A stretch of DNA of 36,348 nt from Candidatus Falkowbacteria bacterium CG10_big_fil_rev_8_21_14_0_10_37_14 (GTDB lineage: Bacteria > Patescibacteriota > Patescibacteriia > Patescibacteriales > Patescibacteriaceae). Shown one piece after another: positions 117-26,847 of the stretch. Positions within the stretch are counted from its first letter, which is position 1, and each line of letters opens with the position of its first letter. The stretch covers positions 97,232 to 133,579 of the forward strand of contig PFAM01000023.1 of assembly GCA_002778705.1 (NCBI GenBank), in the 5' to 3' direction. Position numbers and translations under genes: made by a program. The notes below the pieces were generated by a model that had not been told where the DNA came from, searched no databases, and saw nothing but the letters and a program-made list of their open reading frames with translations.

Positions 117-2273
117 TTACTTAACCAGCCCCCCATTCAAATCTATTCCAGTGCTAATCGCCACATCATCATCTTCTAATTTAGATGTCTTCGGCTTACT
201 TTCTCTTTTAACAGTTGAACCGTTAAAATCATCCTGTGCTGTCAATTTAACTGCCGGTAATAAAATTAAAAGTTGATTGCGTTGCTCTCCGGTCGGTGAA
301 ACTTTAATGGTAAACTGCGCCGCAAAATCGTTAGACAATTTATCCATCACCGGCACCTCCCAAACTAGCTGTCTCATCACTGGTTCATAATTTAATTGTC
401 CAAACACCGTGGATAAATCAGCTATCTCAATATAACTCGGAATAGTCACCACTGCTCGCACCTTGGACAGATTATGTAAAGTATTATTCAAAGACCAAAA
501 AACTTTTAAGCTAGTGGTTTTGGCCACTTCCAAAGGTAAAGGACCGCTACCTAAAGGCATATTATCCTCGCTAAAATAGCGCACTACTGAACCTAAAGCC
601 AAATCAGAATTAACTCTAGCAATGATTTTATTAGAATAATTATCAGGCGTTGACGTTGATGTGGTACTAGTAGTCATTAAGTTTAAGTCTTTAGCTTCCG
701 CCTCTAAATCTCTCTTGTTTATTTGTGCCAAAATACTAGCTATATCACCAGATCGCTTCATTTCAAAGCGTGCTGCCACCGCAATATCTTGTCTAAAATC
801 TCTAGGTAATTCTGATAGATTTTTAACCTTTATAGAGAATTCAATTGTCCCCCGCTCTCCTTTATTTACTTGTGCTAATTCAGGAATCTGCAGCTTAGAC
901 CAAGTAATAGTTTGTCCAGAAACCTCTCCTTTGTTTTTATCTATTAAAGTAGCTCGAGCTAACAAATCACCTTCCAAAACAGCTGAAATAACCACATCTT
1001 CCATTGGTGAATCTCCAACATTATTATAGTTAATTGAATATTTTAAAACTTGGCCAAAATCTACACTCTGATCATTGCTCTGTCCGTTTAAATTTAATAA
1101 TAAACTTAAATCATTTTTAATCACTTCTAAATCCACATCCTCTTCATACAAAGGTAAGTAATCGCTACTGACAATTGTCGGAGTTGAAGATGTGTTTGCT
1201 AATATCGATGAAGTGGCCATACCTTGCTTATCATAATCAAACTTAAACTTCAAAGATACAATATCACCAATTTTATCCAAAAAACGAAAACGCACTCTTA
1301 ATTCCTGTTCTTCATTACTTATTTTATTAACCTGCCACACCCAAGGTCTAATCAAAACAGCGTCTAAATTAGGAACTTCTTCTCTCAAAAATTCCAATTG
1401 TGAGCTATCTGACGGCTCTACAGTTAAATGAAAGTTATCTAATACACTACCAGAGCTTTGTCGATATTTGATAACAATTTCCTGGTCTTCACTTTTTAAA
1501 ACACTAGAAGGCTTAATTAACTGTATGGCTAAGCCACTATCAGACACTACTGTTTCTAAAATTGTATTTTTCTTAAACTCTGTAGAAAACCCTTCAGCCT
1601 TATACAACAACTCACTTGACCATAAATTACTTTTACCGATTAGGTTATAAATCCTACCTCGTAAACGAATTTCTGCGGTTCCCTTACCAGCCAAATTATT
1701 AAATTTCCAAACATTATTATTACTACTAGGCATAGGAGTAGCATCTATGAAAACAAAGCCCTCAGGATAAGCCACCGATATAGTACCTTCTGATAAAGCT
1801 CTGCCGCTATTATTTACTACCTTAATAACATACTCCATTTCCTTGCCGGCTTGAGGGGCTTTTTCCCCTTCCATAGTTAAAGACACCTGAGTAATATCAT
1901 TAGCCGTGCTAAATTTTTGCCAAACACCAAAGCCAGCACCAACAATAAGTATCAAAACAAATAAACCTAAAATTATTTTAGTTAGTGGTCCAAAACTTTT
2001 TTTAATAGTTAGACGGCTAACATCAACTTGTTTGCCATTATCATCTTGATAAATTTCCGACAAACCGTCACTAATATTTTCTTTTTTAACAGCTGTAGTA
2101 ATATCATTGCTCAGCTTATCTATGTCTTTGTTGCGTGGCATATATATTTTTGCATTTACCCTCGCGTATGCGGGGGTCTCGCCAAAAAGTAGAGATTTAT
2201 TTATCTTATAATTAACAAAATTATCACTCATCCTTGTCTTATTTTTTGACATTGGAAATTGGAAATTTGACAT
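117..2273 (-). CDS. single-pass membrane protein with DUF11-like extracellular repeats
   Basis: A 718-residue protein with a charged N-terminal cytoplasmic part, one transmembrane segment at about residues 99-118, and a long predicted extracellular part rich in beta-sandwich-like stretches. Two of these (about 127-215 and 400-490) resemble DUF11/CARDB-type repeats with the '-Y-I-V-N-N-S/V-G-' pattern typical of bacterial surface proteins. No enzyme motif is seen, so an envelope structural or adhesive role is inference. It is the last gene of the GT4-DUF4012 operon, 7 nt after the DUF4012 gene, with GAGG just before the ATG inside the spacer. Residues 31-38 (GETPAYAR) are encoded by a dispersed palindromic repeat whose core recurs at 15806-15820, so the N-terminus may have been extended by an inserted element. 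Starts at Met8 or Met15 are also possible. Confidence 0.8.
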   Translation of the reverse strand: MSNFQFPMSKNKTRMSDNFVNYKINKSLLFGETPAYARVNAKIYMPRNKDIDKLSNDITTAVKKENISDGLSEIYQDDNGKQVDVSRLTIKKSFGPLTKIILGLFVLILIVGAGFGVWQKFSTANDITQVSLTMEGEKAPQAGKEMEYVIKVVNNSGRALSEGTISVAYPEGFVFIDATPMPSSNNNVWKFNNLAGKGTAEIRLRGRIYNLIGKSNLWSSELLYKAEGFSTEFKKNTILETVVSDSGLAIQLIKPSSVLKSEDQEIVIKYRQSSGSVLDNFHLTVEPSDSSQLEFLREEVPNLDAVLIRPWVWQVNKISNEEQELRVRFRFLDKIGDIVSLKFKFDYDKQGMATSSILANTSSTPTIVSSDYLPLYEEDVDLEVIKNDLSLLLNLNGQSNDQSVDFGQVLKYSINYNNVGDSPMEDVVISAVLEGDLLARATLIDKNKGEVSGQTITWSKLQIPELAQVNKGERGTIEFSIKVKNLSELPRDFRQDIAVAARFEMKRSGDIASILAQINKRDLEAEAKDLNLMTTSTTSTSTPDNYSNKIIARVNSDLALGSVVRYFSEDNMPLGSGPLPLEVAKTTSLKVFWSLNNTLHNLSKVRAVVTIPSYIEIADLSTVFGQLNYEPVMRQLVWEVPVMDKLSNDFAAQFTIKVSPTGEQRNQLLILLPAVKLTAQDDFNGSTVKRESKPKTSKLEDDDVAISTGIDLNGGLVK
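2163..2183. repeat. dispersed GC-rich repeat inserted in frame in a coding region
   Basis: The core GTATGCGGGGGTCTC sits in an AT-rich gene and encodes part of GETPAYAR. A near-identical core (one mismatch, GTATGCGGGAGTCTC) lies in the intergenic stretch at 15806-15820, also preceded by TTTxCC. GC content and recurrence mark it as an interspersed element rather than native protein sequence. Confidence 0.5.
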
Positions 2274-2280
2274 TATCCTC

Positions 2281-4605
2281 TTAATCTTCCTTTATCAAAT
2301 AAGTCCAATACTGATCTTTTAATAATTGACGATATGGTAAGTTGGATACAGTTGGATATTGCCAAGCAATTGTTTTATTCTCTGGTAAAATCAATTCAGA
2401 ACGCAGTCTGCTGTTTATTGATCCTGCTTGTTTTTGTGCCAATAGTGTATATTTATAAAGTTGCTCACCAGTCTCCCCTCTTAACCACTGGCGCTGCTTT
2501 TCACCGTTGGTAACTGTCTGATTTAAAGCCTTAATATTAAATGGCAAACGATATGACAAAGTAATTTCTGTCACTTCTCCTGGATCAACCATCGACCAAC
2601 CAGCAAACACCGTTTTATCTTGCTCCCGATAAATTTTTGTACCACTTACTGGCTCAACTTCCGCTGATATTTCATTAATCAATTGTTCATCAACTTCCCA
2701 ACTATTACTAACCAAATCAAATAATTTAGCGTCTGGTATTTTCCAACCACTAGCCGACAATAACTCAGACCCCAAAGGCACATATATTCTCATCCAATTA
2801 ACATTACGCACACCAGTAAATAAGGCCCCGCGAATTGCCGTATGCTCTCGCTTAATAGTCACTGTATCTACGACAGATCCGTCAGTCCTTAGTTCTGCTT
2901 TATGATTTATACTTTCTAGGATAGTTCTATCACTCTTTCCGCCAGCAATATTAGTATTAACCACTTGTAAATAATCTCCGGTTGTTGCACGTACACCACC
3001 ATCCCAACCTTGTTCCACTACCTTATCTTGTAACTCTACATCATTAAAATATAATAAAATGTTTTTACTATCAAAATTATCAATAAGCGCTGAAAGCATC
3101 TTCATTAATAATTCTTGATTAGTCACTCGGCCTAATTTTTCTATCAAGGCTTGATTTAAGTCGCCAATAATCGCCTTTGGTTTATTCGTTACAGCTTCTT
3201 TTTGTTCAGCATATTTTTGCACCACATCTAAAAAATTATCAGCCGTTATCACTTCATTATAAGCCGGCAAACTAACTGGACCGACAATTCTCAATAAGTC
3301 AATCACCACCTGTGGGGTTAAACTAATAATGCCATCCACAGTTGAACCGTCTGATTGTTCATAAAACCACATGATTTTACGAGCAGATGTAGGCCAATCT
3401 GGCCACCAATTACAATCCCACATCATCCAACGACCTCGTACTAGCCTTAAAGGCTCTGGGGCCGCTATAAACCGCTTCATGCCATATTCCACATCGTAAG
3501 TTCCACCTCCTGGAGTTTGTATTTGTTTAATCTCACCCTTAGAAAAATCTACGACAGCAAAACTTCCTATAAAACCCCCCGTAGCTCTCGCCTCAGTTGT
3601 ATTTTGAAAAACCAATAAATATCGCCTATTGGTGGTGTTACCTAAAAACAAAGATAATTTATCAGCGATATCCAATAATTCTGCTAAACCATTTTTAACC
3701 CAAACCCCATTCTCTTTTAATAATAAAAAAGTGTCCCGATATTCAAGCGGAATTGCCGACGAATCTAATTTTCCGATTTGAGCATTAACTTCCCCGGCCG
3801 CCTCTAAAGCTTCATAACCTTTAGTTATAAAATTATCTAAACGGTAAGTTAAAGGACCAGTCGCCAACAAATCATCCATTGCCGCCGTTAAAGCAGCCCC
3901 CATTAAAGCCGATTGCCTTCCAGCTTCAGCAATAATCGGGGCCGAACCAGCTAATTTTAATTTTTCATTAGGTATCATCGCCGCTAATTCAAACAGCCAA
4001 CTGTTAATTTCACCAATTTGCTTCTGCATATTCCAAAAACTATGGCTAGCTTGATTAAAATTATTACTAGCTTCACTAAAGTTTTTATTTGTAGCATCAT
4101 CTTTAGCAGACTTAAGATCATTCATAGCCGCTGAAGCTGCTGTAAATAATTTGTTTTTAAAAACTACCAACCCCCGATAGTTATAATACAAACCAGCTGG
4201 AGCTAATACCACGATCAACATTATAACAAACGATAAAGCCGCTCGACCTAACTTAACTTCGAGTTTAAAATGCCAGCTATTCAAAAATTGTTTTTGTTTA
4301 TACCACGCTAACTGACTATGTTTACGATATTTATTAAAACTTCGCTTAGCTAAAATCTTTTGTCGTTGTGCTTCGTTTACCATGATTTCTAAACCTCGTG
4401 CTACAACATTAATTATTTGACTAATCAATTTAAAGGGCCGACTAATTATTTGCCAAATTAATTTACTATTCCAAACTACGATTGTATGCACAATGTACCC
4501 CAAACTATACACAGCCTTTAAAGTTTTCTTTAATAGCCAAAACAAAACCCTAGCCTCTAGCCAGCCAAAATAAGTAATCCATTTTAAAATCTTAAAATGT
4601 CTCAT
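2281..4605 (-). CDS. DUF4012 domain-containing membrane protein
   Basis: A 774-residue protein. The N-terminal ~110 residues are basic and aromatic with possible amphipathic or re-entrant helices. A clear transmembrane helix follows at about 121-142, then a large outer-face region. The stretch from about residue 325, with RRYLLVFQNTTEARATGGF, SDGSTVDGIISLTP and a conserved GG-x-YD-E-Y pattern, matches DUF4012, a family common in CPR and actinobacterial genomes and of unknown biochemical role. It often sits beside polysaccharide genes. Here the start overlaps the stop of the upstream glycosyltransferase as ATGA, so translation is probably coupled, and the DUF11-like gene follows after 7 nt. 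A role in envelope glycan export or attachment is inference from this context. Confidence 0.85.
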   Translation of the reverse strand: MRHFKILKWITYFGWLEARVLFWLLKKTLKAVYSLGYIVHTIVVWNSKLIWQIISRPFKLISQIINVVARGLEIMVNEAQRQKILAKRSFNKYRKHSQLAWYKQKQFLNSWHFKLEVKLGRAALSFVIMLIVVLAPAGLYYNYRGLVVFKNKLFTAASAAMNDLKSAKDDATNKNFSEASNNFNQASHSFWNMQKQIGEINSWLFELAAMIPNEKLKLAGSAPIIAEAGRQSALMGAALTAAMDDLLATGPLTYRLDNFITKGYEALEAAGEVNAQIGKLDSSAIPLEYRDTFLLLKENGVWVKNGLAELLDIADKLSLFLGNTTNRRYLLVFQNTTEARATGGFIGSFAVVDFSKGEIKQIQTPGGGTYDVEYGMKRFIAAPEPLRLVRGRWMMWDCNWWPDWPTSARKIMWFYEQSDGSTVDGIISLTPQVVIDLLRIVGPVSLPAYNEVITADNFLDVVQKYAEQKEAVTNKPKAIIGDLNQALIEKLGRVTNQELLMKMLSALIDNFDSKNILLYFNDVELQDKVVEQGWDGGVRATTGDYLQVVNTNIAGGKSDRTILESINHKAELRTDGSVVDTVTIKREHTAIRGALFTGVRNVNWMRIYVPLGSELLSASGWKIPDAKLFDLVSNSWEVDEQLINEISAEVEPVSGTKIYREQDKTVFAGWSMVDPGEVTEITLSYRLPFNIKALNQTVTNGEKQRQWLRGETGEQLYKYTLLAQKQAGSINSRLRSELILPENKTIAWQYPTVSNLPYRQLLKDQYWTYLIKED

Positions 4606-21432: not shown

Positions 21433-22959
21433 ATGCCACATTACGATGTTATTATTGGTTTAGAAATTCACACCGAACTCAAAACTAATACCAAAATGTT
21501 TTGTTCTTGCGCTAATAATAATAACGCCCGAGCCAACTTTAATACTTGCCCCATCTGTTTAGGACATCCAGGCACGCTACCAAATCTTAATGAAAAAGCT
21601 GTAGAACTTGGTTGCCTTTTAGCATTAGCTCTTAATTGCAAAATTAATCAACAATCTAAATTTGACCGCAAGAACTATTTTTATCCCGATCTACCTAAAG
21701 GCTATCAAATCTCTCAATATGACCAACCACTAGCCTGGGGAGGTTTTTTGAATATCAGTCCTAATCATGATATTCTGTTAACTCGCCTGCATCTAGAAGA
21801 AGACACTGGCAAATTAGTCCACACTACTCTCGGAGCCAAAATGGATTACAACCGTGCCGGAGTTCCTTTGCTTGAGTTAGTTACTGAACCTTTAATTAAA
21901 TCCGCTGAAGAAGCTAAATTATTTGCTCAAAAATTACAGCAGCTTTTACGTTATTTAAATATTTCTGACGCTGACATGGAAAAAGGTTTGATGCGTTGTG
22001 AAGCTAATGTTAGTTTGCAAACTCCCGGTCGCTGGCACTACAACAACGGCTTAATAGAGCCAACCGGAGATGAACCGCTTAATCACAAAGTAGAAGTAAA
22101 AAACATTAACTCTTTTAAAGCTTTAGAATCAGCTATTAATTTTGAAATTACACGACAAACAAAAGCTCTCGAAGCAGGCCAAAATATCAAAGCTCAAACC
22201 AGAGGCTGGGATGAAAAAATTAAAGGCACTAAAGCCCAAAGACGCAAAGAAACTTCAGCTGATTACCGCTACTTTCCTGAACCAGACTTACCTCCATTAG
22301 ACTTAGACGACTCTTTTATCTCTCGAGCCAAGCAGTTAGTTATAGAATTGCCAGCCGATAAACATCGTCGTTTTGCTATCGAATACGGTTTACCTGCTAA
22401 TGATATCGAACTGTTAATAAATCAAACCACTATAGCTGATTATTTTGAAAATGTTGTTTCTGAACTGCGAGCTTGGATTATTGCTGAAGGTGATACTTGG
22501 GAAAGACAAAATGCACTTTTATCTAAAACTGCTTCCAATTGGCTTAACACAGAATTAAACAAGTTATTAAACAGTGCTAATTTAAGTATTCAGGCTTGCC
22601 CTATTACTCCAGAAAATTTTGCCGAATTAGTTAAATTAATTTACAAAAAACAAATCAATTCCTCCGCCGGTCAAACCATCATGGCTGAAATTTTTAAAAC
22701 TGGTGGCGAACCAAAAAGTGTTATGCGTCAACTAGGTTTAGAGCAATTAGACGACACTCTGACTATAAAAACTTTAGTTGAACAGGTTTTAAAAGAAAAC
22801 CCCAGCCAAGCCGAAGAATTTAAAACAGGAAAAATAGCTCTATCTAAATTTTTTGTCGGCAAAGTGATGGCGTTGTCCGGTGGCAAAGCTAATCCTGTTT
22901 TAGTTGAAAAAATAATCAATTTATGTTCTACAACTCTTAAACAAAACACCTCAGAATAA
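21433..22959 (+). CDS. gatB: Asp-tRNA(Asn)/Glu-tRNA(Gln) amidotransferase subunit B
   Basis: A 508-residue tRNA-binding kinase subunit of GatCAB, which phosphorylates and amidates misacylated Glu-tRNA(Gln) or Asp-tRNA(Asn). Seen: DVIIGLEIHTELKTNTKMFCSC, the zinc-site cysteines (CSC...CPIC), FDRKNYFYPDLPKGYQISQY, EVKNINSFKALESAINFEI, TSADYRYFPEPDLPP, and a C-terminal YqeY-like domain ending in KFFVGKVMALSGGKANP. Full length. gatA and gatC are not adjacent. The companion tRNA-Glu is at the right end of the window, but that is probably chance. Confidence 0.96.
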   Translation: MPHYDVIIGLEIHTELKTNTKMFCSCANNNNARANFNTCPICLGHPGTLPNLNEKAVELGCLLALALNCKINQQSKFDRKNYFYPDLPKGYQISQYDQPLAWGGFLNISPNHDILLTRLHLEEDTGKLVHTTLGAKMDYNRAGVPLLELVTEPLIKSAEEAKLFAQKLQQLLRYLNISDADMEKGLMRCEANVSLQTPGRWHYNNGLIEPTGDEPLNHKVEVKNINSFKALESAINFEITRQTKALEAGQNIKAQTRGWDEKIKGTKAQRRKETSADYRYFPEPDLPPLDLDDSFISRAKQLVIELPADKHRRFAIEYGLPANDIELLINQTTIADYFENVVSELRAWIIAEGDTWERQNALLSKTASNWLNTELNKLLNSANLSIQACPITPENFAELVKLIYKKQINSSAGQTIMAEIFKTGGEPKSVMRQLGLEQLDDTLTIKTLVEQVLKENPSQAEEFKTGKIALSKFFVGKVMALSGGKANPVLVEKIINLCSTTLKQNTSE

Positions 22960-22993: not shown

Positions 22994-25816
22994 ATGTTAA
23001 TATTAAAAAAAAATGCGTCCATTTTAAAGTTGTCTCTACGCCAACAAGCCTTTACATTAGTAGAAATACTAACAACAATTAGCTTAATCGCTATTATCGT
23101 TAGCGTGTCCATAGTTATCGTTACTAAACTACGCACAAACGCCGAAGATATTACCTATCTTAATGCCGTTACTAATGTCCAGACGGCACTTAATTCCTAT
23201 AAAATAGAAACTGGTTTTTATCCATCTACTCTAATTCCTGGTCAACCACTTATCAGCCCTATCGGAAAAACATTTCTTTCAGCTGGCCCGACTCAATCTG
23301 GTAAAATAGCCAACTGTCCAATCAGTGATTACACCTACACAGTAACTAACAATGGCCTATCATATAACTATAAATATTGTCTTAATAAATCCAGTATTAA
23401 CAATTGTAGCAGTCAAATAAGCTATGTAGCCAACCCTTCAGGCATTACTTCTTTAGGCCTTTGCAACAACACTTGCTGTTCAGTTGGGCAAATTTGTTTC
23501 AATAACACTTGTTGCACACGACAATGCTCCAATAAAGACTGTGGTGATGACGGCTGTGGTGGCTCTTGTGGAGATTGTTCTGCCCCTAACACCTGTGGCG
23601 GAGCTGGTGTCACCGGAGTTTGTGGTTGTATCTCTGAAACTAATATTGCTTTTTGCACCAGAAATAATCAAACCTGCGGTCCCTTAACAGCGCTTGATAA
23701 TTGTGGTATTTCTAGAACCGTAGCTGCTTGTGACACTTGTGATGGCAAAACCTGTGGCGATAGTGGTTGTAACACAACTAGCTGTGGTTCTTGCATTGCT
23801 CCAAAAACTTGTGGTGGTGCTGGTGTAGCCAACACTTGTGGCTGTACTCCAAATTGTTCTGGAAAAACTTGTGGAGACGATGGTTGCGGTGGAGTTTGTG
23901 GTACTTGCTCTGGCACTCAAGTTTGTGGTGGTGCTGGTGTAGCCAACACTTGCGGTTGTTTCCCTGGTGTTTGTGGCGAAAATTGTGGAACTTGTAGCAC
24001 TCAACCTTTCATCATTTGGACAGAAGTCTTTGGCCAAGGACAATTATATCGCGTAGCTCGTGACAGACAAGATAATACCAAATTAGTAGCCTCTATGTCT
24101 GGAGGCTCGGTGTATATTTCTAATGATAACGGTACCACCTGGACAAAAACAAGTACCCTTACATTTGGCAAACCTTATGATGTCGCCTCTGCTAATAATG
24201 GTAGCACCTTATATGTTGGCATGTATGCCAATAGCAGTTATAACCAACCCGGCATCGCTAAATCAATTAATCGTGGCTCCACTTGGAGTAAAATCTATTC
24301 AACAGACACCCGCGCTCTCGCAACCTCTAATGATGGACAAAAAGTTTTAGTCGCCAACACCCCCGTTTCTAAACTTAGCTTATCAACTAACAGCGGCTCA
24401 ACTTTTTCATCAATTGCCACTCCTGGCACAGCCTTATGGCTTTCAGTATCAATGTCTTCTGATGGCACAAAAATGGCCGCTATCGGTAAATTTACTAATA
24501 GCTATGCAGTTTGGGTTTCGACTGATAGTGGTACTACTTGGAATAATACTTTAACAGTTAACGATTACAGCGGTAATAGTTATATGGCACAGTTAGCCTA
24601 TTCTGGCGATGGCACTAAACTATTTGCAATAATAAATGCTAATTTCCCTGTTTATAAATCCACTGATGGAGGCCTCACTTTTACTTCAGGAAATAATGGA
24701 CTTTGGGCATCTTTATCAGTTTCTTCTGACGGCACTAAGATAGGTCTTACTAAAATAACTACCGCTCCTAGCGGCGATTTCTATTTATCAACTAATTCCG
24801 GCACTAATTATAGTAAAGTTAATACCAACTCTTTAACCACCGCTTATTATTTATCATCTAATTACACAGATGGTTCAATTATTTGCGGTGGGCAAATATC
24901 AACTAACAATGGCGTAACCTGGTCCCCATTTTTTTATCCTTATGATTGGACAGCTGTGGCTATTAATTCCAACGGATCCACTGCCTTAGCACTAACAAGT
25001 TCTAATCCAAATCTCCCTCATTTTACAACTCTCTTTAAAACCGTTAATGGTGGTACAACCTGGGCTCGTGTTTTTTCATCATACCAACAAGACTCTATTG
25101 GAAAAGCTGTAATTATGTCTGAAGATACCAACCACGCTTCATTCAGCATTAAATCTAGCTCAGATAGAGGTTTTTACACCTCTAACGATCTTACTACTTG
25201 GAAAAAACTATTCTCAGTCCCAAATGCCGCCTATAACAATATCAGTGGATCATATCGTTTATTTTACCAAATATATAACTACGAAAATGGAGCACCAGCG
25301 CCTATAGGACAAAATTATTGGGCAGAATCAGATTCATCATTCTCTTCGATTAGTGGTGGCTCGTCTATGTCTTCCGATGGCCTAAAAATCTTTGTTTATC
25401 AAATCAACGGATTTCTTCACATCTCTCACGATAGAGGAAAATCATGGATGCCAAAATTATTTGAACAAACTAGAGCTTGGTCCAGCATTGCTAATTCTAA
25501 TAGTGGTTCAACGGTAGCCGCCACAATAAATAGTGGTTATATCTGGGTTTCTACTGACAGTGGCGTTACTTGGACAGAAAAAACATCTTCTGGTAGTAGA
25601 GCTTGGTCAGCCATAGACGTTTCCTCTGGAGGTTATTTTATAGCAGCTGCAGTTAACGGAGGCTATATTTATCTCTCAACTGATAACGGCACTAGCTGGA
25701 CAGCCTTAACAGGTGCCGGGATAAGAAATTGGACTAGCCTAAAGTTTTCAGCTAGCAGTAATAAATTAATAGCTGCCTCTAGCTATGGACCAGTTTCCAT
25801 AGCTCCGATTCAATAA
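22994..25816 (+). CDS. type IV pilin-like protein with Cys-rich region and Asp-box beta-propeller
   Basis: A 940-residue surface protein. Order seen: a short basic leader, then QQAFTLVEILTTISLIAIIVS, a class III prepilin signal with cleavage expected after A19 (Ala, not the usual Gly, at -1) and Glu at +5; a pseudopilin-like segment (about 45-150) with TGFYPS as in GspG-type pseudopilins; a Cys-rich region (about 157-334) of repeated CGDDGCGG-x-CG-x-C and CGGAGVxxxCGC units; and about 600 residues with a dozen Asp-box (BNR) motifs such as STDSGTTW, STNNGVTW, SHDRGKSW and STDNGTSW. The last part should fold as one or two beta-propellers. An adhesin or sugar-binding tip carried on a pilus is the likely role (inference). 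No SD; a terminator follows. Confidence 0.85.
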   Translation: MLILKKNASILKLSLRQQAFTLVEILTTISLIAIIVSVSIVIVTKLRTNAEDITYLNAVTNVQTALNSYKIETGFYPSTLIPGQPLISPIGKTFLSAGPTQSGKIANCPISDYTYTVTNNGLSYNYKYCLNKSSINNCSSQISYVANPSGITSLGLCNNTCCSVGQICFNNTCCTRQCSNKDCGDDGCGGSCGDCSAPNTCGGAGVTGVCGCISETNIAFCTRNNQTCGPLTALDNCGISRTVAACDTCDGKTCGDSGCNTTSCGSCIAPKTCGGAGVANTCGCTPNCSGKTCGDDGCGGVCGTCSGTQVCGGAGVANTCGCFPGVCGENCGTCSTQPFIIWTEVFGQGQLYRVARDRQDNTKLVASMSGGSVYISNDNGTTWTKTSTLTFGKPYDVASANNGSTLYVGMYANSSYNQPGIAKSINRGSTWSKIYSTDTRALATSNDGQKVLVANTPVSKLSLSTNSGSTFSSIATPGTALWLSVSMSSDGTKMAAIGKFTNSYAVWVSTDSGTTWNNTLTVNDYSGNSYMAQLAYSGDGTKLFAIINANFPVYKSTDGGLTFTSGNNGLWASLSVSSDGTKIGLTKITTAPSGDFYLSTNSGTNYSKVNTNSLTTAYYLSSNYTDGSIICGGQISTNNGVTWSPFFYPYDWTAVAINSNGSTALALTSSNPNLPHFTTLFKTVNGGTTWARVFSSYQQDSIGKAVIMSEDTNHASFSIKSSSDRGFYTSNDLTTWKKLFSVPNAAYNNISGSYRLFYQIYNYENGAPAPIGQNYWAESDSSFSSISGGSSMSSDGLKIFVYQINGFLHISHDRGKSWMPKLFEQTRAWSSIANSNSGSTVAATINSGYIWVSTDSGVTWTEKTSSGSRAWSAIDVSSGGYFIAAAVNGGYIYLSTDNGTSWTALTGAGIRNWTSLKFSASSNKLIAASSYGPVSIAPIQ

Positions 25817-25828
25817 ACAGCTATCAAT

Positions 25829-25859
25829 AAAACCTCCCAATAATCTATTGGGAGGTTTT
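25829..25859. terminator. bidirectional intrinsic terminator between the pilin-propeller gene and miaA
   Basis: A 14-bp stem AAAACCTCCCAATA / TATTGGGAGGTTTT (25829-25842, 25846-25859) with a 3-nt loop and T-runs on both strands. Confidence 0.9.
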
Positions 25860-25862
25860 TAA

Positions 25863-26768
25863 TTAGCCGTCACCTAAAAAATTTTTTACTAATTCATCTG
25901 CCTCATCAATTGTTTTAATCCAATGTATCTTTACATCTTGTTTCTCCCAACGTTTAAACCAAAACATTTGTCTTTTTGCAAAATGACAAATATCTTTATA
26001 TAATGCTTCCACCATTTCATCATATTCAACCTTGTCTTGCAAATATCTAGCTATCCATTTATATTCTAAACCAAATTTTTCCAAACGCTGCCAGGTCACC
26101 CCCTCATTATTTAATCTTTCTACTTCCCCAATCATGTCTTCTTGATCCAGTCGGCTCATTAATCTTTGTTTAATCCGTGTATCCAAGACTTCTTTTGGCC
26201 AAACCAAACCAATCAACAAACAATCATACCGCGGCCGGTTTACTCTCGCCGTTGGTTCAGTTTTAGCCACAGCCAACTCTACATAACGCCCTAACCGTCT
26301 TTTATTATTTAAGTCGCTATTATTTAATTTAGCAAAAAATGTTGCATTAGCTGTTTTCAATAACTCTTGCAACTCTTCGACTGTTTTAGCTTCTAATTCT
26401 TCACGCAAGGCTCTATTAGTTGGCACATTAGGCATTACATAGCCATCACACACCGCTTGTAGATAGAGACCAGAACCGCCAACCACGATTGGCTGTTTTT
26501 TATTTACAAATATCTTTTCAATCGCTTCATAAGCTAGTCGCTGATAACGAGCTAAATCGAATTGTTCATTAGGTTTAGCCACATCAATTAAGTGATAAGG
26601 TACTCCCCCATAATCTCCCAAGTCTTTACCACTGCCAATATCCATACCCAAATAAACCTGTCGGCTATCAGCACTAATAATCTCACCTTCCAGATTTTTA
26701 GCTAATTTTATACCCAAACCAGTCTTACCAGAAGCTGTTGGACCTAAAACAACAATTAGTTTTTTCAT
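25863..26768 (-). CDS. miaA: tRNA dimethylallyltransferase MiaA
   Basis: Adds the isopentenyl group to A37 of tRNAs that read UNN codons. Seen: MKKLIVVLGPTASGKTGLGIKLA (P-loop), ISADSRQVYLGMDIGSGK, VPYHLIDVAKPNEQFDLARYQ, VVGGSGLYLQAVCDG and the C-terminal KRQMFWFKRW. I place the start at the ATG at 26768 (301 residues), which matches the family; the frame extends 7 codons to 26789 (MSITFTN). Neither start has an SD. miaB, which acts on the product of this reaction, lies 0.8 kb away on the same strand. Confidence 0.95.
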   Translation of the reverse strand: MKKLIVVLGPTASGKTGLGIKLAKNLEGEIISADSRQVYLGMDIGSGKDLGDYGGVPYHLIDVAKPNEQFDLARYQRLAYEAIEKIFVNKKQPIVVGGSGLYLQAVCDGYVMPNVPTNRALREELEAKTVEELQELLKTANATFFAKLNNSDLNNKRRLGRYVELAVAKTEPTARVNRPRYDCLLIGLVWPKEVLDTRIKQRLMSRLDQEDMIGEVERLNNEGVTWQRLEKFGLEYKWIARYLQDKVEYDEMVEALYKDICHFAKRQMFWFKRWEKQDVKIHWIKTIDEADELVKNFLGDG

Positions 26769-26847
26769 ATTTGTAAAGGTTATTGACATGTTTTTATGTT
26801 TAATGCTAGTTTTATGTTAGTATGTTCAATTAAACGGAGTTTGTATC

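Follow-up and report, generated by a model that had tools for sequence, protein, structure and literature searches.

An orphan gene in a draft genome of Candidatus Falkowbacteria encodes the largest prepilin found in that genome, which is probably (at a rough probability of 0.6) a minor type IV pilin of modular build, acting as an adhesin on the pilus. Its uninterrupted reading frame (positions 22994-25816, plus strand, of the window, i.e., the entire stretch of 36,348 nucleotides analyzed here) encodes 940 amino acids, which comprise a prepilin leader, a pilin module, a Cys-rich region, and a large head of Asp-box repeats (Table 1). The proposed function is suggested by the pilus machinery genes of the same genome, by the existence of other pilins with grafted modules, and by the analogy with PilX2, a propeller-ended minor pilin.

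We infer that the prepilin peptidase of the genome cuts the class III signal and that the helix packs the pilin module, at the tip or along the flank, into a type IV pilus built by one of several PilB/PilC sets. The Cys-rich segment would make up a stiff stalk held together by disulfide bonds. The twin Asp-box propeller may bind a partner, most likely a glycan or a protein on a neighboring cell, thereby serving in attachment. Its head is one of several kinds found on the prepilins of this genome. The draft genome (910,378 bases in 26 contigs, 89.56% complete; the window is located on contig C24) belongs to a tiny, probably host-dependent bacterium of the CPR (Patescibacteria).

Table 1. Features of the pilin gene and its immediate context (positions in the window).
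Feature	Position	Strand	Basis
gatB (context)	21433..22959	+	same strand, ends 34 bases upstream of pilin gene; Pfam GatB_N, GatB_Yqey
Prepilin leader, 19 residues from ATG	22994..23050	+	translation; matches to N_methyl and TIGR02532
Pilin module, residues 20-152, GspG/geopilin-like	23051..23449	+	model; GspG E 1.1e-4; geopilin chain E 0.002
Cys-rich region, residues 153-337	23450..24004	+	Cys count; CGDDGCGG/CGDSGC and CGGAGV units
Asp-box repeats, residues 338-940, two modelled beta-propellers	24005..25813	+	BNR, shuffles, models, fold searches
Terminator-like hairpin: perfect inverted repeat flanked by runs of A and T	25829..25860	.	between pilin gene and miaA; by eye
miaA (context)	25863..26789	-	faces pilin gene; Pfam IPPT

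Prepilin signal, pilin module, and assembly machinery

The translation contains a prepilin signal with the expected cleavage site after Ala19 (between QQA and FTLVE), a hydrophobic helix, and a GspG-like TGFYP segment; the signal and the TGFYP segment agree with the original prediction. N_methyl matches the protein with 21.2 bits in the search of the genome, which is above the cut-off, and with 18.6 bits (E 0.0013), just below it, in hmmscan. TIGR02532 exceeds its cut-off (17.6 vs 16.3 bits); the match to GspG is weak and far below the family cut-off. The pilin module comprises a long helix with Glu at +5, the TGFYP segment, and few strands. Because an in-frame TTG at position 23030 represents an alternative start, with a leader of 7 instead of 19 residues, translation may begin at either ATG or TTG.

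The Ala residue at position -1 had been suspected to impair processing. It is no objection to the prepilin assignment, because 15 of the 34 prepilin signals in the source genome likewise carry Ala, the other 19 carrying Gly (31 signals were read by script; three rows marked '?' were read by eye as G, A, and A).

The source genome encodes one prepilin peptidase (Peptidase_A24), T2SSE ATPases, PilB with MshEN, PilC, and PilM, and is thus equipped for signal cleavage and pilus assembly. The hallmarks of a modular type IV pilin in the sense of PMC8179133 are present: a class III signal (IPR012902-type motif), a pilin module with a long helix and Glu at +5, an extra non-pilus domain (BNR, modelled propellers), and a prepilin peptidase together with assembly machinery in the genome. 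Elsewhere in the genome (G000:C10), a single frame of 1,015 aa (L216:1511-4555, minus strand) carries two PilB/GspE-type ATPase domains in tandem.

Cysteine-rich region

The protein contains 41 Cys residues, 37 of which fall within the 185 residues from 151 to 335. This segment includes three CGxxGC units, and the protein has three copies of CGGAGV; repeated CGDDGCGG/CGGAGV units had been noticed at the outset. A Pfam search of this part gave no match, and residues 148-338 have a pLDDT under 50 and no confident structure in the model of the whole protein (model 1). Judging from its sequence, the region is presumed to be a disulfide-bonded stalk; related stalks occur in other prepilins bearing other heads. 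The source genome encodes two DsbA-like proteins, which could provide for disulfide formation; VKOR was looked for in that genome and not found. Pilins and a thiol-disulfide oxidoreductase are described as abundant in CPR genomes (PMC6744442).

Asp-box propeller head

The pattern [ST].[DN].G.[ST][WFY] matches 10 times in residues 335-940, whereas shuffled sequences (n=2,000) average 0.07 matches and never exceed 3; a looser pattern finds 11 boxes in the propeller part. The repeats are therefore real, if somewhat fewer than the "about a dozen" first counted. Pfam BNR exceeds its cut-off (34.9 bits vs 27, E 6.4e-9).

Structure prediction, which had been proposed as a check, yielded both the pilin helix and beta-propellers. 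Model 1 (17 sequences, mean pLDDT 63.7, pTM 0.43) comprises a helix at residues 13-73, pilin strands, and blades from about residue 340 to the C terminus, with a first propeller of 7 or 8 blades at about residues 346-648. It aligns with the propeller 2ymu (Z 27.4, rmsd 4.6, 536 aligned), the seven-bladed design 7bie (Z 27.3, rmsd 2.7, 273 aligned, residues 347-648), and 1nr0, which consists of two seven-bladed propellers (Z 25.2, rmsd 5.2, 552 aligned). In model 2, which covers just residues 336-940 (29 sequences, mean pLDDT 73.4, 217 residues at 90 or higher), the first domain aligns with longer WD40 chains over about 305 residues (5mzh, Z 24.9, rmsd 3.4), the matches to double propellers are loose (rmsd about 15), and residues 361-451 have a pLDDT under 50. 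According to these models, the propeller fold is well supported, the blade count and the layout of the second propeller less so.

The list of nearest folds is led by enzymes. GH74 chains are the top matches in Foldseek (E 1.8e-22 for model 1, at about 15% identity, and 1.2e-16 for model 2), a profile search finds the xyloglucan hydrolase 2cn3 (E 3.1e-17), and the NCBIfam glycosylhydrolase F510_1955 matches with 75 bits. These matches would agree with a twin propeller resembling GH74 (xyloglucanase fold) and cleaving a polysaccharide on the pilus or on the cell surface. However, 75 bits are far below the F510_1955 cut-off of 175, the identity to GH74 is low, and the same profile is matched by Ycf48 and sortilin, which are not known to be enzymes, so that an enzymatic head appears improbable. 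The profile alignment is out of register and gives no position for the catalytic Asp pair that GH74 enzymes have between their propellers. Twin Asp-box propellers are common to the modelled head and the GH74 xyloglucanases (2cn3, 6p2l), but the latter are secreted enzymes; their twin seven-bladed layout may be reflected in the double-propeller fits of model 1, whereas those of model 2 are loose. A sialidase (GH33) was rejected: the hallmark of sialidases is an R-I-P motif before the first Asp box, and R[IVL]P occurs nowhere in the protein.

Genomic context and recurrence of the fusion

The adhesin candidate is not flanked by pil genes, contrary to what had been expected; in the Pfam search of the window, its neighbors are gatB and miaA. 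A recently acquired foreign gene was rejected, because its GC3 of 0.289 falls within the range of the other window genes (0.248-0.379). The GC content of the Cys-rich part is raised (0.465), without such a rise at third positions. At a distance, a 718-aa DUF11/DUF7619 protein adjoins a DUF4012 protein and a glycosyltransferase (window positions 120-2273 and 2284-4605, minus strand), possibly another set of surface proteins.

The protein matched 123 of the 145 genomes searched, its own included; among the matches listed, those in genomes of the same order and class mostly concern the pilin part. When the reading frames of 16 Asp-box stretches were checked for a fusion with a pilin, it was found in two genomes of the same order, namely in four genes of G088 (L081, L083, L084, L085) and, in G092, in the complete L086 and in L090, which is cut by a contig end. 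A contig scan with about the last 140 residues as query yielded 78 loci. By a sequence test, a prepilin signal was present in 6 of the 85 frames in these loci with at least three Asp boxes: the four G088 genes already mentioned, one of G092, and one of a Saccharibacterium (L113), whose matches to N_methyl and BNR_6 both exceed the cut-offs. Among the remaining 79 frames, many start like ordinary secreted proteins, and some run off the contig start, their N terminus lying outside the sequence.

The source genome contains a second pilin gene with Cys-rich and Asp-box parts on contig C3 (L061:871-3000, minus strand), an interrupted paralogue. Its in-frame TAG at 1888-1890 is followed by an Asp-box frame that runs on for about 340 codons to position 871 and then shifts; this paralogue has either decayed or been interrupted, unless the assembly is in error there.

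One might suspect that the window gene itself is an assembly chimera or a decaying, functionless fusion, given the draft state of the genome (26 contigs) and an Asp-box frame that continues behind the stop codon of the paralogue (L061:1888-3000). Yet the reading frame of the window gene is unbroken, its GC3 resembles that of its neighbors, and the same domain order, by which the original prediction was to be judged, occurs in other genomes, which makes this explanation highly implausible. A chimeric assembly was rejected because pilin–Asp-box fusions recur in three other genomes (G088, G092, and that of the Saccharibacterium with L113) and a second copy, albeit interrupted, is present in the source genome.

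Because other Asp-box proteins of relatives have ordinary starts resembling signal peptides, display without a pilus seems to be common for this domain. The prepilin N terminus of the window protein might likewise serve merely as export signal and membrane anchor, with the stalk and the propeller exposed on the cell surface outside of any filament. The position of an orphan gene among housekeeping genes and the bulk of a 600-residue head, which would have to be accommodated in a filament, are consistent with such an anchor. However, an anchor would not need the retained Glu at +5 together with a complete GspG-like pilin module and its strands, bulky modular pilins have been described within filaments (PMC8179133), and PilX2, which also ends in a propeller, is reported to act together with its pilus (PMC12206443). 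We consider a mere anchor rather unlikely and favor a pilus-borne adhesin.

Prepilins with different heads

N_methyl has 34 matches in the source genome, with 13 open frames of at least 300 aa; three run off a contig end. A pattern search alone revealed two more on contig C3, including the interrupted copy, so that large prepilins number about 15 and bear heads of several kinds. By Pfam, these heads comprise Laminin_G_3 in nine large prepilins, an LVIVD propeller in one (L072), Lcl_C in one, and a cadherin-like plus Gly-rich head in one, in addition to the Asp-box genes; another large prepilin (L077) is Cys-rich and has no named domain. LVIVD is presumably identical to IPR013211, the repeat in a large modular pilin from a related CPR group. 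While the notion of a propeller displayed on a pilus was right in outline, it had missed this large set of different heads.

Among the relatives, N_methyl matches number 34 in G001, 14 in G003, 47 in G008, 39 in G012, 31 in G088, 9 in G087, and 5 in G062. Frame lengths, which cover 150 of these 179 matches, reach at least 300 aa in 18 of the 27 matches listed for G001, 4 of 11 for G003, 34 of 43 for G008, 30 of 35 for G012, 17 of 25 for G088, none of 6 for G087, and none of 3 for G062. Since prepilins are scarce and short in G087 and G062, two genomes of the order at a greater distance, the expansion took place in some lineages only. The count for G012 does not result from stray contigs, because this genome consists of one 869,590-base contig.

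Mosaic structure and exchange of heads

In a comparison among 114 prepilin frames, each part of the window protein has a different nearest relative. For the pilin part, the best matches are prepilins that differ at the C-terminal end (L035, 40% over 117 aa); for the stalk, the best match is a prepilin bearing an Lcl_C head (44% over 167 aa), and for the propeller, it is proteins of G088 and G092 (about 29% over 600 aa).

In G001, a member of the same genus, two genes on two contigs (L066:1813-3756 and L067:2229-4025) have 1,040 bp in common at 98.5% identity. The shared stretch extends from 43 bases before the start through the pilin and stalk parts, and its last 700 bp are almost identical; the identity then breaks sharply, the 3' parts differ completely, and the upstream flanks differ as well. 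This pattern points to a recent exchange of heads, and a head swap is the likely origin of the pair. The evidence for recent exchange consists of this one pair in G001 plus a weaker second pair (L069/L071, 87% over 381 bp); a search of both genomes found no long shared copies besides L066/L067.

In G008, six tandem prepilins (L217, G008:C4:353500-362000) have near-identical pilin starts and heads of the FISUMP/Lcl or LamG type. The pilin parts of 20 paralogues in this genome have a median protein identity of 83-86% and a median dS of about 1.4, at which synonymous changes are saturated (67 same-type and 123 different-type pairs; heads were typed by a simple motif, which left three of the 20 without a type). 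Because of this saturation, neighbors with differing heads are old paralogues with no sign of recent exchange, and any exchanges in the array would be old, which speaks against a repertoire under active reshuffling.

The gatB–miaA interval harbors a prepilin also in 2 of 12 relatives (L206, L213), with a LamG head in G008 and no named head in G088; in another of the 12, the sequence (L209) stops within gatB and is uninformative. The prepilins in this interval of the three genomes have three different heads, and their pilin parts are not mutually close. Orthology was rejected on the basis of their ranks, with those of G008 and G088 in 61st and 80th place among 94 pilin matches to the window protein; the site is common, the genes are distant. 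Given this distance between the pilin parts, prepilin genes seem to have entered the interval on more than one occasion.

Comparison with known systems

Modular pilins, including propeller-ended ones, are already known; a head of Asp-box propellers on a Cys-rich stalk was not found named in the open-access texts searched. PilX2 of Nanosynbacter lyticus TM7x (Saccharibacteria) is described as a minor pilin whose C terminus forms a seven-bladed propeller of RCC1 repeats. It is needed for full host binding, which deletion of pilX2 reduces by about half; the authors predicted no PilD signal for it (PMC12206443). Like PilX2, a proposed pilus adhesin, the window protein is a CPR pilin with a C-terminal beta-propeller. 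However, PilX2 has RCC1 repeats instead of Asp boxes (up to E 0.1, hmmscan of the window protein has BNR among the matches listed and no RCC1), the available text of PMC12206443 describes neither a Cys-rich stalk nor a second propeller, as modelled here, and its gene is part of a pilin locus, whereas the window gene is an orphan between gatB and miaA.

In Streptococcus sanguinis, modules grafted on the pilins PilB (vWA) and PilC (lectin) are reported to act as adhesins (PMC8179133, PMC9934059). The window protein shares this combination of a pilin module and a grafted module. Binding has been demonstrated for these non-CPR proteins, whereas that of the window protein is proposed by analogy; they also have other heads and a short linker in place of the long Cys-rich stretch. 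The large modular pilin of the related CPR group likewise carries a repeat head, but of another repeat family, and its available description includes no Cys stalk.

The tip adhesin PilY1/PilC also displays a beta-propeller on a type IV pilus. PilY1 itself, however, is described as carried by minor pilins and not as a pilin (PMC8179133), whereas the window protein has its own pilin module; the PilY1 propeller domain (IPR008707) is absent among the five families matched up to E 0.1 in hmmscan. The architecture of an Asp-box propeller and a pilin was not found in the open-access texts searched, and may be listed in the supplement of PMC8179133 (Dataset S1). No link between modular pilins and Patescibacteria was found in the same texts; in its accessible text, a paper on the Candidate Phyla Radiation treats pili and concanavalin A-like lectins as separate surface features.

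Implications for host recognition

As a test of how ultrasmall, probably epibiotic bacteria recognize their carrier cells, a knock-down of tip-located minor pilins has been proposed in a review (PMC11665869). Pilus proteins with different heads may be used to grip other cells. With at least 30 large headed pilin genes each in genomes of about 0.9-1.0 Mb, G008 and G012 possess a candidate repertoire for host recognition, and the pair in G001 suggests that heads are swappable on a short time scale. This set of heads and the G001 pair are more interesting than the window protein itself. We tentatively raise the possibility that these CPR bacteria maintain a repertoire of pilus heads that is dispersed and actively reshuffled, in which a cassette of pilin and stalk would recombine with LamG, FISUMP/Lcl, Asp-box, LVIVD, Gly-rich, and Cys-only modules. 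Such a repertoire, which might be likened to the adhesin or antigen repertoires found elsewhere, could let lineages change which cells they grip.
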